Source: Mucilaginibacter ginsenosidivorax (GTDB taxonomy: Bacteria; Bacteroidota; Bacteroidia; Sphingobacteriales; Sphingobacteriaceae). Taken from it: a DNA stretch of 64,000 nt. The stretch is from the NCBI RefSeq assembly GCF_007971525.1, contig NZ_CP042437.1, forward strand, positions 3,162,001-3,226,000, read 5' to 3'. Below are positions 6,719 through 20,601 of this stretch, in pieces. A program made the position numbers and the translations under genes. Positions within the stretch are counted from its first letter, which is position 1, and every line of letters starts with the position of its first letter. The notes under the pieces are model-generated. The model had not been told where the DNA came from. It was given only the letters and a program-made list of their open reading frames with translations, and ran no database searches.

Positions 6719-6825
6719 ATCTCCCTTGAAGGGGAGACTTTTGATTAGCATACTGCTCGTCAGCGCATCAAGATGCCGCGTTCTTTCAAAAGTTCCCCCT
6801 TTAGGGGGCGGAGGGGGCTTTTTTT
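6719..6825. repeat. REP-like G/C palindromes upstream of glnS
   Basis: CTCCC-TTGAA-GGGGAG at 6720-6735 and TTCCCCCTTTAGGGGG at 6793-6808 (followed by CGGAGGGGGC) belong to a short palindromic family (CCCCCTTYAGGGGG plus a G-rich tail). The family recurs at about 8503-8528, at 8600-8625 and inside murF (19720-19746). Confidence 0.75.
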
Positions 6826-6841
6826 TATTATTTTTGCCCTC

Positions 6842-8500
6842 ATGAGCGAAGAAAGATCACTGAACTTTATAGAAGAAATTGTTGAAGAAGATATAGCCAA
6901 CGGCAAGCACGGCGGCCGGGTATTAACCCGTTTCCCGCCCGAGCCCAATGGTTACCTGCATATTGGCCACGCCAAATCTATTTGCCTTAACTTTGGTTTG
7001 GCCCAAAAGTACAACGGTAAAACCAACCTGCGTTTTGATGACACCAACCCTGTTAAGGAGGATGTGGAATATGTTGACAGCATTAAAGAAGATGTTAAAT
7101 GGCTGGGCTTTAACTGGGCCGAAGAACTGTACGCTTCTGACTATTTCGACCAGCTATATGAGTTTGCGGTAACGCTTATTAAAGCCAACCTGGCTTATGT
7201 TGACGATAGCACAGCCGAAGAGATAGCCCATCAAAAAGGCACCCCTACCGAGCCGGGCGTACCCAACCAGTACCGCAGCCGCTCTGTTGAGGAAAACCTG
7301 GAGTTGTTTGCCGATATGAAAGCCGGCAAATACCCCGATGGCGCTAAAGTACTGCGTGCCAAGGTTGACCTGGCTGCACCCAACATGCACCTGCGCGACC
7401 CTTTGATGTACCGCATTAAACATGCCCATCACCACCGTACCGGCGATGCCTGGTGCATATATCCCATGTACGATTTTGCCCACGGCCAATCGGATGCTAT
7501 TGAGCAGATAACCCACTCTATTTGTACGCTGGAGTTTATTCCCCACCGGGCATTGTATGATTGGTTTATTGAGCAGTTAAGCATCTTCCCATCCAAACAA
7601 TACGAGTTTGCCCGTCTTAACCTCAACTACACCGTAATGAGCAAGCGCAAGCTGCTGCAACTGGTGGTTGAAAAACATGTTGACGGCTGGGACGACCCGC
7701 GCATGCCTACCATTAGCGGCCTGCGTAGGCGGGGGTATACGCCTGCCAGTATCCGCGAGTTTTGCGAACGCATCGGCGTAGCCAAACGCGAAAACATGAT
7801 TGACGTTGGCCTGCTGGAGTTCTGCATCCGCGAAGACCTGAACAAAACCGCATGGCGCCGTATGGCTGTGCTCGACCCTATAAAATGCATCCTGACCAAC
7901 TACCCTGAAGGCGAGGTGGAGATTATGCATGGCGAAAATAACCCCGAAGCCGAGGATGGCGACGGCAGCCGCGAGTTTCCGTTTAGCCGCGAACTTTGGA
8001 TTGAACGGGAAGACTTTATGGAGGTACCGCCAAAAAAATTCTTTCGCCTGGGTGTGGGGCTGATGGTGAGGCTTAAAAATGCCTACATCATCCGTTGCGA
8101 CGACTTTGTGAAAGATGCCGATGGCAACGTAACCGAAATTCATTGCAGCTACCTGCCCGAATCAAAATCGGGTAACGATACCAGCGGCATTAACGTGAAG
8201 GGTACCATTCACTGGGTGAGCGTACCGCACGCCAAAACCGCCGAAGTAAGGCTGTACGACCGCCTTTTCCAGGTAGAGAACCCGCAAAGCGAAGAAGGCG
8301 ACTTTAAAGATTATATCAACCCCAACAGCCTGCATATTATCCCAACCGCCTATATTGAACCCGACCTGGCCAACGCCATACCCGGCACCGCCGTACAGTT
8401 CATGCGCAAAGGATATTTTACGTTGGATAAATACTCAACCGATGATAAGCTGATCTTCAACAGAACAGTAACGCTGAAGGATGGGTGGGTGAAGAAATAG
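6842..8500 (+). CDS. glnS: Glutamine--tRNA ligase
   Basis: A 552-residue class I aminoacyl-tRNA synthetase, close to the 554 residues of the E. coli enzyme. The HIGH signature appears as [12 protein letters not shown], with the KMSKS equivalent VMSKRKL and the GlnRS-specific RFDDTNP. An anticodon-binding beta-barrel region fills the C-terminal third. It charges tRNA-Gln in the cytoplasm. The ATG at 6842 (MSEERSLNF) is chosen; in-frame sequence upstream reads through a repeat and is unlikely to be coding. A TATTTTTG motif lies only 6 bases before the ATG. Confidence 0.97.
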
Positions 8501-8502
8501 CA

Positions 8503-8530
8503 GCCCCCCAGCCCCCTAAAGGGGGAGCCT
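8503..8530. repeat. REP-like palindrome after glnS
   Basis: The sequence is GCCCCCTAAAGGGGGAGCC with a preceding C-rich block. It is the inverse orientation of the palindrome family found upstream of glnS and inside murF, and lies directly after the glnS stop. Confidence 0.7.
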
Positions 8531-8548
8531 TTTATTTGCGGCTTTAAC

Positions 8549-8587
8549 CAAAAAGGCCATTCGCTAAAAGCGAATGGCCTTTTTTAT
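8549..8587. terminator. Bidirectional terminator between glnS and the amidase
   Basis: AGGCCATTCGCT (8554-8565) pairs perfectly with AGCGAATGGCCT (8569-8580), with a 3-base loop, an A run on the left and a T run on the right. It suits termination of the two convergent genes. Confidence 0.9.
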
Positions 8588-8599
8588 TCCGTTATAGTT

Positions 8600-8625
8600 C
8601 CCCCTTCAGGGGGTTAGGGGGCATA
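8600..8625. repeat. REP-like palindrome overlapping the amidase stop codon
   Basis: CCCCCTTCAGGGGG followed by TTAGGGGGC. The minus-strand amidase gene reads through the G-rich tail, which supplies GCC CCC TAA. Same family as the repeats at 6793, 8503 and 19720. Confidence 0.75.
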
Positions 8626-9450
8626 CTTCCTATACACATTATAAAGTACATTTAAATCCAGCTGGCCCATGGTGGGGCTGTCTTCAATTTGTACAAAATG
8701 GCGTTTAAAGGCGGTTATGGCGGCGGGCAGGTTGCTGGTATCGTAGCCTATGAGGCGCAGGGCGGTGGCGTAGTCAAAGTTATCGGGGGGCAGTTCAAGC
8801 AGTTCGTCGGGCCAGTAGCCGAAGCCTTTGGCGGCCAGTAGTTTCCAGGGGAATAGCGGGCCCGGATCGGGCTTGCGGGCGGGGGCAATATCCTGGTGAC
8901 CGATGAAGTTGGCTGTGGGGATGTTATAGGCCTTTTTAAGCTGAGCCAGCAGCGCCAGCAGGCTGCGTACCTGCGGGTCGGTAAAAGGCTCGTGGCCGTT
9001 GTTATCAATCTCGATACCTATCGAGCAGCTGTTCATATCGGTAATGCTGCCCCACTTGCTGATGCCGGCCTGCCAGGCGCGCAGGTAATCGTTAAGCATG
9101 TGTACCACTTTGCCATCCTTGCCCACCACGTAATGGGCGCTCACCTGCGGTTTTACCAGCGTAAAGGTTTTAATGGTTTGCGCCAGCGAATCCTGCGCGG
9201 TATAATGGATAATTACATAATTGGGCTTGCGGGCGTTAAAGTTAACGGTGCCAATCCATTCGCTGGGGATGGGCATGCCCAGGCTATCAACCAACATGGC
9301 AGGCTGCTCGCGGGCAAACACTTCCAGCAGCGAATCGGTTTGGTGGTTGTATACCTTGTTGGTGGCTGCGTAGGGCAGTACCTTGGGCGAGCATGATGCC
9401 ACGGTTAACAAAATAGCCAGGGGCAGTATATAATAAGCGGTATTTTTCAT
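8614..9450 (-). CDS. N-acetylmuramoyl-L-alanine amidase, lipoprotein (Amidase_2)
   Basis: A 278-residue protein with a lipoprotein signal (LLTVASCS, lipid-anchored Cys near residue 20). The Amidase_2/PGRP fold has zinc-binding histidines in VIIHYTAQ and in FIGHQDIAPARK, the latter followed by DPGPLFPW. It cleaves the lactyl-L-Ala bond of peptidoglycan and probably acts in the periplasm as an AmpD/AmiD-like recycling or remodelling enzyme. ATG at 9450 is preferred over GTG at 9456. The last two codons and the stop (Ala-Pro-TAA) lie inside a REP-like palindrome, so the C terminus was probably altered by repeat insertion. Confidence 0.9.
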   Translation of the reverse strand: MKNTAYYILPLAILLTVASCSPKVLPYAATNKVYNHQTDSLLEVFAREQPAMLVDSLGMPIPSEWIGTVNFNARKPNYVIIHYTAQDSLAQTIKTFTLVKPQVSAHYVVGKDGKVVHMLNDYLRAWQAGISKWGSITDMNSCSIGIEIDNNGHEPFTDPQVRSLLALLAQLKKAYNIPTANFIGHQDIAPARKPDPGPLFPWKLLAAKGFGYWPDELLELPPDNFDYATALRLIGYDTSNLPAAITAFKRHFVQIEDSPTMGQLDLNVLYNVYRKYAP

Positions 9451-10003
9451 AGGCACAAAGTAAGCTTAAAGCTAAAGTAAGCAATTAACCACCGAAGCCG
9501 AAAATAGTTGTGCCCATGTACAGGTGTTCGGTTTTGGGAGGGGATGAGTGGGGTGTTCGGGGGCGAACACTTAATTGGTTGTTAATTAATGGGTTAGGTG
9601 TTTTGGCTTGTTAGGCAGTTTGTTTTATTAGTGTTGATTATCAGCGACTTATGTTTTTTAAGGTGTTCGGGGTGGAATTTGGAGGGGGGCGCTTGCACGG
9701 TGAGCGGTGGTCCGTGCGGACATGCGGCAAAAATGCCTCTTTATAGGTACCGCCGGGCGCCGCCCGACAACCGTTCGGGCACCGGCTACTTACCTGGTAG
9801 CCACCTTAGGGGCACCATTTTAGGGATGACTGGATTTGGGTGGCTGGAGTTTACCGTTTGCGGATATAATAGCACAAAAAACATCAAATAATTTATACTT
9901 ATATCCAATTTTTGGGTGGGGAAATTAAAAGGAAATGAAATTAATGGGATATAATTTTACACTTTTTTTCGGAGGTGGCGAGAGGAAGGCAGGGCGAGGG
10001 CAT
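9451..10003. other. Gap with hairpins, no supported gene
   Basis: This stretch contains three GGTGTTCGG tracts. One forms a hairpin: GTGTTCG 9553-9559 with CGAACAC 9564-9570. A GC-rich patch at 9745-9815 has small inverted repeats. An open frame at 9598-9891 shows no domain, has skewed composition and overlaps the GC-rich patch, so it is not called as a gene. Confidence 0.5.
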
Positions 10004-18762: not shown

Positions 18763-18944
18763 ACCTATGACAAGTTTAAAAACGGAAGTCATCCCGAACT
18801 TGTTTCGGGATCCCAGAGGACAGGTGACCCGCATGAAGTACACTTAGCATGTGGGGTGCTGAAACAAGTTCAGCATGACATTGGGGATTAAGTCGCTGTC
18901 ATTCCCCCTTCAGAATTTCGCTAAATTTAACCACTCAGGATGAC
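18763..18944. repeat. Dispersed repeat family A, copy 1
   Basis: Contains CATCCCGAACTTGTTTCGGG and GGTGCTGAAACAAGTTCAGC, each internally palindromic. Copy 2, at 25384-25560, matches along the whole length. Partial relatives (GTCATTCCCCCTTAAGAATT) occur at 47318-47370. Confidence 0.85.
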
Positions 18945-18983: not shown

Positions 18984-20345
18984 TTAAAACAACTCCACCA
19001 GCCGCTCCAGGGCCATACCGCGCGATCCTTTGATGAGGATGGTTGAATGGGTGATGGGGCTGGCCTTTAATGCAGCAATGGCATCCTCGGCTGTGGCGTA
19101 ACAGGTGTTTTGGCCCATGGTCCATAGTCCATGGTCGATGGACTGAGCGGCAGCGGCAAAGTCTTTCCCGATAAAAATGCGTTCGTCAACCGGGGTATCC
19201 AGTGCTTTTTGGATCACGGAGGCATGCTCGGCGGCCGACTCGGGGCCCATCTCGAACATGTCGCCCAGGATGAGTACTTTGCGTGGGGCCTGCAGCTTGC
19301 CAACGTTTTCTATAGCTACAAACATGCTGCTGGGGTTGGCGTTATAGTAATCGCAAATAAGGGTATTGCTTGCCGTTTTCACAATTTGCGAGCGATTGTT
19401 TTTGGGCTGATAGCCTTCGATACCGGCGTTTATTTGCTCGGCAGGGATATTAAAATAGCTGCCTATGGCTATGGCCGCCAAAATGTTATGCAGGTTATAT
19501 GCGCCGGTGAGCTGGGTTTTTACGGTGTAGCTTTGCCCGGTTTTATTGTTGGTGTATTCCAAAGCAAGCAGGGGCGAGTTTTCTATTAGTTGCCCGCTCA
19601 CCAAATCATCAATAGTATTGGTGCCATAATATACCACGTTGCTCAGCTTACGGGCGGCAGCCATATCAAGCAATGTTTGGTCGTCGCTATTAATAAAGGT
19701 AACGCCACCTGGGCTGCTCACTCCCCCTTCAGGGGGCCGGGGGGCCAAATAATCATATAATTCCCCTTTGCCTTTCTTCACGCCCTCTACCCCGCCAAAA
19801 CCTTCCAGGTGCGCCTTGCCTACGTTGGTTATTAAGCCGTGCGATGGCTGGGCGATGGTGCAAAGCAGTTCGATTTCTTTTTGGTGATTGGCCCCCATTT
19901 CGATAACGGCCATCTGGTGGCTGGCGTCGATGGTTAAAATAGTGAGGGGTACGCCTATATGGTTGTTTAAATTGCCCTGAGTGGCCTGGGTTTTAAAGTG
20001 TTGGGATAGCACGGCGTTGATAAGCTCTTTAGTGGTGGTTTTGCCGTTGGTGCCGGTAAGGCCTATAACGGGAATGCTTAACTGGCGACGGTGGTGGCGG
20101 GCCAGATCCTGCAGGGCGGTAAGCACATCGGCCACCAGCAAATAATTATCGCCCAGCTGGTAGGCGGGATTATCAATTACGGCGTAGGCTGCGCCTGCTG
20201 CAATGGCCTGTTGGGCAAAGGTGTTGGCATCAAATTTATCGCCTTTAAGGGCAAAAAACAGGCTGCCGGCGGCAATTTTGCGGGTGTCGGTACTGATAAC
20301 AGGGTGCTGCAGGTATAGCTGGTAAAGTTGCTGGGTAGTAATCAT
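18984..20345 (-). CDS. murF: UDP-N-acetylmuramoyl-tripeptide--D-alanyl-D-alanine ligase
   Basis: A 453-residue Mur ligase adding D-Ala-D-Ala to UDP-MurNAc-tripeptide in the cytoplasm. The P-loop GLTGTNGKTTTKE is visible, with EMGANHQKEIELL, NYNLHNILAA-type ligase motifs and DYYNANPSS. ATG at 20345 (MITTQQLYQLYL) is chosen; the frame stays open further upstream only because it runs through a palindromic repeat. About 14 residues (APRPPEGGVSSPGG, from roughly 19704-19746) correspond to an in-frame REP-like palindrome between GKGELYDYL and VTFINSDDQ. This is an odd but apparently tolerated insertion. Confidence 0.95.
   Translation of the reverse strand: MITTQQLYQLYLQHPVISTDTRKIAAGSLFFALKGDKFDANTFAQQAIAAGAAYAVIDNPAYQLGDNYLLVADVLTALQDLARHHRRQLSIPVIGLTGTNGKTTTKELINAVLSQHFKTQATQGNLNNHIGVPLTILTIDASHQMAVIEMGANHQKEIELLCTIAQPSHGLITNVGKAHLEGFGGVEGVKKGKGELYDYLAPRPPEGGVSSPGGVTFINSDDQTLLDMAAARKLSNVVYYGTNTIDDLVSGQLIENSPLLALEYTNNKTGQSYTVKTQLTGAYNLHNILAAIAIGSYFNIPAEQINAGIEGYQPKNNRSQIVKTASNTLICDYYNANPSSMFVAIENVGKLQAPRKVLILGDMFEMGPESAAEHASVIQKALDTPVDERIFIGKDFAAAAQSIDHGLWTMGQNTCYATAEDAIAALKASPITHSTILIKGSRGMALERLVELF
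19720..19746. repeat. REP-like palindrome inserted in frame in murF
   Basis: CTCCCCCTTCAGGGGG followed by CCGGGGGGCC. Same family as the repeats at 6793, 8503 and 8600. It encodes Pro/Gly-rich residues in the central domain of MurF. Confidence 0.8.
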
Positions 20346-20423: not shown

Positions 20424-20578
20424 GTTATTTCGAACGAACCGGCAGTGGGATTGCGCAGAGGAGGTGAGGAGAAATCTTATGCGATTTGCATCGCGAGGGG
20501 ATATGTTGATGCAGGGCGTATAGGATTTTTCGCTACGCTCAAGAGGTAGTTTCTCCTCGTACCTCGTTCGAAATGACA
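20424..20578. repeat. Dispersed repeat family B, copy 1
   Basis: The ends are inverted: TTATTTCGAACGA...TCGTTCGAAATGA. Inside are GAGGAGAAATCTTATGCGAT and GGATATGTTGATGCAGGGCG. Copy 2 is at 20944-21075; together they bracket the GIY-YIG gene. Confidence 0.85.
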
Positions 20579-20601
20579 ATTTTCTTATCAATAACCCTTT
20601 G

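Follow-up and report, generated by a model that had tools for sequence, protein, structure and literature searches.

REPIN/RAYT systems, as reportedly described by Bertels and Rainey in 2011, have two arms in inverted orientation. Palindromes of 20-40 bp known as GTAG/CGTC REPs are mostly intergenic and often arranged as inverted pairs, and some of them lie in frame within genes (Di Nocera et al. 2013, PMC3733652). Several of these intragenic copies sit in DNA repair genes, the ends of the repeats can supply stop codons, and different REPs are found at about the same recB site in two Xanthomonas species (PMC3733652). The RPE of Rickettsia, as Ogata et al. (2000, 2002) are recounted in PMC10969869 and PMC3733652, are selfish palindromes of ~150 bp that lie in frame in housekeeping proteins.

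We analyzed a window of 64,000 nucleotides (bases 3162001-3226000) from the genome of the soil bacterium Mucilaginibacter ginsenosidivorax, which is a single contig of 7,811,413 bases. Its murF gene carries a short palindromic repeat, called repeat A here, within the coding sequence.

Repeat A in murF and in the genome

The features of the gene and of its central-domain loop are as follows.

18984..20345, minus strand: murF, UDP-MurNAc-tripeptide--D-Ala-D-Ala ligase, 453 aa (ORF; TIGR01143; PDB 1gg4)
19721..19745, minus strand: repeat A, solo "G arm", coding strand GCCCCCCGGCCCCCTGAAGGGGGAG, read APRPPEGG (exact copy; 85-place genomic family)
19719..19745, minus strand: 9 extra codons, APRPPEGGV, 27 nt beyond the 15-residue baseline (alignment and lengths; AlphaFold2 model)

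The murF product belongs to the TIGR01143 family, with a score of 389.7 bits against a cut-off of 288.6, and is matched by the MurF of PDB 1gg4 with an E value of 3.3e-64. Repeat A is present as a 25-bp REP-like arm that keeps the reading frame. The first-pass annotation had placed an in-frame REP-like palindrome at 19704-19746; repeat and frame are borne out, but that span includes neighboring codons. Nor does the repeat add about 14 residues, as had been estimated: the loop segment, taken from KGELYDY to the next strand, has 24 residues here versus 15 in most insert-free species, leaving 9 extra residues. Mapping onto structure, a check proposed with that annotation, puts the insert in a helix-strand turn. 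In the AlphaFold2 model (mean pLDDT 87.3) it lies between helix 194-200 and strand 215-219, and residues 206-209 have pLDDT values below 50, making the loop the region of lowest confidence in an otherwise good model. The corresponding turn of E. coli MurF (1gg4) is short.

Other palindromic repeats adjoin both ends of murF, of the CATCCCGAACTTGTTTCGGGAT type downstream (18790-18885) and of the TTTCGAACGA...TCGTTCGAAAT type upstream (20430-20580). The first-pass annotation had called murF essential, which goes beyond the evidence, since a second gene encodes a fusion of MurF with alanine racemase, whose TGSNGKT motif looks intact (27% identity over 437 aligned columns). A close stand-alone MurF was not found in six of the 100 genomes searched (G034, G045, G049, G083, G095 and G096; completeness >=99), and the fusion may stand in for MurF there.

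The arm in murF belongs to a family of short palindromic repeats that is enriched in the genus. The 23-base arm occurs at 85 places in the genome with <=3 mismatches, 8 of them exact, and the reversed-pattern control gave 0. Within the window the arm has one exact match and 3 matches with <=3 mismatches, compared to none in 100 shuffles. The 14-base core lies at four window places (6795, 8512, 8600 and 19723), or 8 matches counting both strands, a number reached by 0/100 shuffles (mean 0.65). An accidental match of a GC-rich loop, with no repeat insertion at all, could draw on the low-complexity C and G runs of the arm. The shuffle and reversed-pattern controls refute such a chance match, and the 8 exact genomic copies and the absence of the residues in relatives leave it a negligible probability. 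Repeat A is present in 86 of 100 genus genomes, with no match for the reversed control, and a family-wide draw found it in 11 of 13 Mucilaginibacter and in 6 of 108 others, with 1-6 copies apiece.

The three other window sites that the first-pass annotation had listed (cores at 6795, 8512 and 8600) are confirmed.

8503..8527, plus strand: repeat A, G arm, left half of an inverted pair (arm and core searches)
8598..8622, minus strand: repeat A, T arm GCCCCCTAACCCCCTGAAGGGGGAA, right half of the pair (arm and core searches)
6795..6808, plus strand: core of another repeat A copy (core search)

Their description as three intergenic sites is only partly correct. The cores at 8512 and 8600 form one inverted pair between two convergent ORFs, and the status of 6795, which falls within a 575-aa ORF, 22 bases past its called start, hinges on where that ORF truly begins. 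The TAA of the T arm at 8598..8622 is the stop codon of ORF 8614-9456 (minus strand). A terminator-like hairpin lies between the arms of the 8503-8622 pair, and the DNA fold of 8500-8628 has a z score of -7.35. As DNA, the solo murF arm folds no better than shuffles (z -0.01).

The stretches around the 85 places contain 101 arms: 54 G arms of the murF kind, 41 T arms with TAA in the tail (GCCCCCTAACCCCCTGAAGGGGGAAC), and 6 that are unassigned. They are arranged as 30 inverted pairs and 41 solo arms. Paired stretches span 76-177 nt, and their spacers are mostly unlike one another, share a few bases next to the arms, and may contain a terminator-like hairpin or the next gene's start codon. These spacers leave a fixed mobile unit with a conserved spacer in doubt. 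At most of the 85 places there is no covering long ORF, where orphan small ORFs (60-150 aa) over repeats are excluded from gene counts; the same repeat is found within and outside genes, as had been claimed.

Many, mostly intergenic copies and inverted pairs are both traits of RAYT-mobilized REP/REPIN elements, and repeat A has both. No cognate RAYT flanked by repeat A was found among the 6 PF01797 (Y1-type transposase) genes of the genome in stretches of 1.9-2.1 kb; the sole A-core match near them has 3 mismatches and is chance-like. Three RAYT-like genes (L251, L252 and L253) are flanked by other inverted palindromes. Because no PF01797 gene is flanked by an arm, we set aside a RAYT as the demonstrated mobilizer of repeat A, and no transposase linked to the repeat was found in this genome.

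The MurF loop across Mucilaginibacter

MurF sequences were taken from 100 genus genomes and 80 named loci, which gave 171 proteins and, after 23 identical ones were dropped, 148 distinct MurFs: 105 from Mucilaginibacter and 43 from records not so titled. All 43 of the latter have a 15-residue loop segment. Among the 105 Mucilaginibacter proteins, 56 are short (14-16 residues), 12 carry repeat A and 14 repeat B (both assigned at <=2 mismatches), one carries C (L048), one is a compound loop with 54 extra residues that includes D (L058), and 21 are other or decayed, several of which match no known repeat family. Repeat B is a tandem octamer, AGTCSGRA, read KSESPEVG, and is itself repetitive, being found in 82 of 100 genus genomes against 2 matches in all for the reversed control. 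This alignment, which had been suggested as a check, disposes of the idea that all relatives share the same residues. It also shows that murF does not hold a single odd insertion, since the same loop carries different repeat families in different species. The earlier proposal of a tolerant loop is upheld; the tolerance itself we infer from the sequences.

We asked where in murF the repeats lie. Of the 105 genes, 12 have A in the loop and 2 have it elsewhere; the corresponding numbers are 15 and 2 for B (<=3 mismatches) and 1 and 1 for C. The loop averages 58 of 1331 nt, and reversed patterns gave 0. Three of the 5 gene-motif matches off the loop fall in a second MurF loop (L048, L135 and L145), and the remaining 2 are chance-like. 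This second loop belongs to the C-terminal domain, and the window gene carries a repeat there too.

19115..19136, minus strand: octamer family F repeat GACCATGGACTATGGACCATGG, in frame, read DHGLWTMG (exact match; 0 in 100 shuffles)

In the window gene and its sister, the second loop holds the octamer (GACCATGG)n. Family F is present in 26 of 61 genus genomes (reversed control 0), and 19115-19136 is its only copy at <=1 mismatch in the M. ginsenosidivorax genome. Model block 401-410, which includes this loop, has a mean pLDDT of 63. The second loop of relatives is occupied by B, A, C/D-type or other repeats.

A MurF tree built without the loop columns needs a minimum of 32 state changes in total, with 17 between insert and none and 9 between A and B among 26 rows, and these counts cannot separate gain from loss. 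Different repeats are found in the well-supported sister pairs L003/L004 (100/100) and L011/L015 (100/98), and L018 (A) and L019 (decayed B) form another sister pair (100/100). The L007/L008 pair also differs, in a weakly supported grouping. The murF of the window has A and that of its sister, G020/OK283, has B, at 95% amino-acid and 92.3% nucleotide identity. The first-pass annotation had called the element active or recently active. That goes too far: sister species differ at this murF distance, but neither within-species polymorphism of the repeats nor a transposase link was found. Empty loops are too diverged for a target-site duplication to be read.

All 12 A copies in MurF lie on one strand and in one frame, and all 14 B copies lie on one strand. 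Read from sequence, the murF arm is open in 5 of its 6 frames and has a stop in one. The uniform strand and frame argue against many fully independent random insertions, and it appears from the sequences that the MurF pattern must owe something to a small number of insertions combined with exchange or descent, or to peptide selection.

We favor the reading, at a probability of roughly 0.7, that a repeat within a gene persists only at a tolerant loop and in frame, decays, and is then replaced by another repeat or by interspecies exchange. It starts from direct observations, namely repeat identity, frame and position, occupancy by several families, and differences between sister species. Copies of A and of the unrelated families B, C, D, E and F would arise across Mucilaginibacter genomes, and an intragenic copy would persist only if it is in frame and the protein accepts the extra residues. 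In MurF, the accepting sites would be a surface turn between helix and strand in the central domain and, in the C-terminal domain, a second loop. Loop content would decay by substitution and deletion, and the same codon neighborhood would be refilled repeatedly by whichever repeat arrives; as an alternative to refilling, content could be exchanged between species by recombination. We infer the order of insertion, decay and replacement.

A possible though rather doubtful alternative leaves new insertion a minor role: one or a few ancient insertions would have produced A-type and B-type loop alleles that then spread by homologous recombination. The uniformity of A (12/12 for strand and frame) and B (14/14 for strand) is what such alleles would give, and A-type loops of one clade share post-repeat residues (SKTDG in L008, L014 and L039), as do B-type loops. 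However, junctions and tails vary between A clades: there is none in L049, L034 starts three codons earlier, and the tails of L028 and L113 read AFETHNGG and AFEKHNG. No exchanged tract is visible in the flanks of swapped pairs, although the identity profiles are not decisive (L003/L004: 94-100% on the left; 97, then 83-88%, on the right). Compound loops of several families (L048 and L058) also speak against ancient alleles, as does the fact that A and B are many-copy repeats in the same genomes.

Repeats in other genes

Family-confirmed genes with repeat A well inside the coding sequence in the M. ginsenosidivorax genome are murF, recN (TIGR00634) and a TIGR02757 gene, which carries an inverted pair. 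In-frame insertion in protein genes, a trait shared with RPE, is found in all three. We read the loops of RecN and TIGR02757 in the best 30 of 57 genomes with recN and the best 30 of 59 for TIGR02757, a selection that favors close relatives. Among these, the RecN loop has A in 15, B in 5 and C in 1, and is short in at least 3 (L334, L337 and L340); the TIGR02757 loop has A in 20 and E in 2 (GTCATYCTGAGCGAAGC type). Reversed controls gave 0 for both loops. As judged from these sequences, recN and the TIGR02757 gene are recurrent landing loops too. The stem alone can be exchanged with unchanged flanks, as in recN (L320 vs L325) and in argC, where L263 has an A stem (CCCCCTTCAGGGGG) and L265 a C stem (CCGCCAACTGGCGG). 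The T arm in TIGR02757 is read PPNPLKGE, the one open frame of its sense strand, and such a frame would support selection.

These data bear on the proposal that peptides such as PPxPPEGG and KSESPEVG have been co-opted, being retained for a role in MurF, either as a linker or as a site of interaction. The peptides are exclusively polar and rich in Pro, Gly, Ser and Lys, and each family keeps to one strand and frame, as co-option would have it. Yet 56 of 105 congeners and all 43 other records do without an insert, unrelated peptides substitute for each other between sisters, and the same turnover is seen in RecN and TIGR02757, and we consider co-option improbable.

Repeat A also lies at the N-termini of trpG-type, thrB, murG, argC, cupin and 2-phosphosulfolactate phosphatase genes, and at the C-terminus of argG. 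The N-terminal extensions of ArgC, TrpG-type, ThrB and MurG proteins and the ArgG C-terminus are built of repeat, with the start codon between two arms (L234 2450-3070, L199 2380-2580, L205 and L213). In trpG and argC, there is no ATG, GTG or TTG among the codons between repeat and conserved core, and translation through the repeat is therefore likely in these two genes, as far as sequence can tell. The other N-terminal copies possibly have a downstream start instead, the same reservation that Di Nocera et al. express about REPs at N-termini (PMC3733652). Among 16 genomes, that of M. ginsenosidivorax included, 7 carry the repeat at the end of argG, 7 at the start of argC (a C-type stem in one of them) and 11 at the start of trpG; the others lack it. 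The 134-aa gene behind argG, guessed from sequence to be an acetyltransferase, encodes a cupin protein.

In 40 regions of four other genomes, we found 61 A places, including RadA, MurF, RecN, TIGR02757 and a GldF-GldG frame; the regions were hand-picked from the matches listed, with some placements in MurF, RecN and TIGR02757 known beforehand, and this recurrence is not an independent test. RadA/Sms of G056 (TIGR00416; L377 1050-2465) has an in-frame repeat read APQPPEGGA, and in G022 (L412 393-2786) a repeat joins gldF and gldG in one 798-codon reading frame. We lean slightly toward the view that MurF (twice), RecN, TIGR02757 and perhaps RadA are long-lived landing pads, where one unrelated family replaces another at the same codons over the time scale of speciation, sometimes by a swap of the stem only. 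If so, evolution within the genus amounts to a natural screen for insertion tolerance in these proteins.

Comparison with known systems

Where a cell-wall enzyme can take up additional residues is shown by more than 100 naturally occurring MurFs, some with inserts and some without. As a comparative system, they make it possible to test how short repeats spread without a known transposase, and whether a gene is refilled by new insertion or by interspecies exchange. The literature searched, which was limited by license, held no report of repeats in MurF or of repeat A in Mucilaginibacter; this does not prove that none exists.

Like the GTAG/CGTC REPs, repeat A is short, palindromic and mostly intergenic, forms inverted pairs, lies in frame in some genes and can supply a stop codon. 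In contrast to those REPs, a single MurF loop in Mucilaginibacter hosts three or more unrelated families, sister species differ, and three genes recur. Repeat A resembles REPINs in its inverted arms (30 pairs among 101 arms in the M. ginsenosidivorax genome), but differs from REPIN/RAYT systems in that its spacers vary from copy to copy and may hold a start codon or terminator, and in that the RAYT-like genes are flanked by other palindromes. With RPE, as the sources cited above portray them, it shares in-frame placement in housekeeping proteins; unlike these, it consists of 25-bp arms adding 9 residues, occurs in another phylum and shows recurrent family turnover at one site. The recB REPs of the two Xanthomonas species are the closest precedent for MurF loop turnover, although so much turnover at a single site is unusual. 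REPs and RPEs within genes are already known; what is new is that, across a single genus, several unrelated families have repeatedly occupied the same loops.
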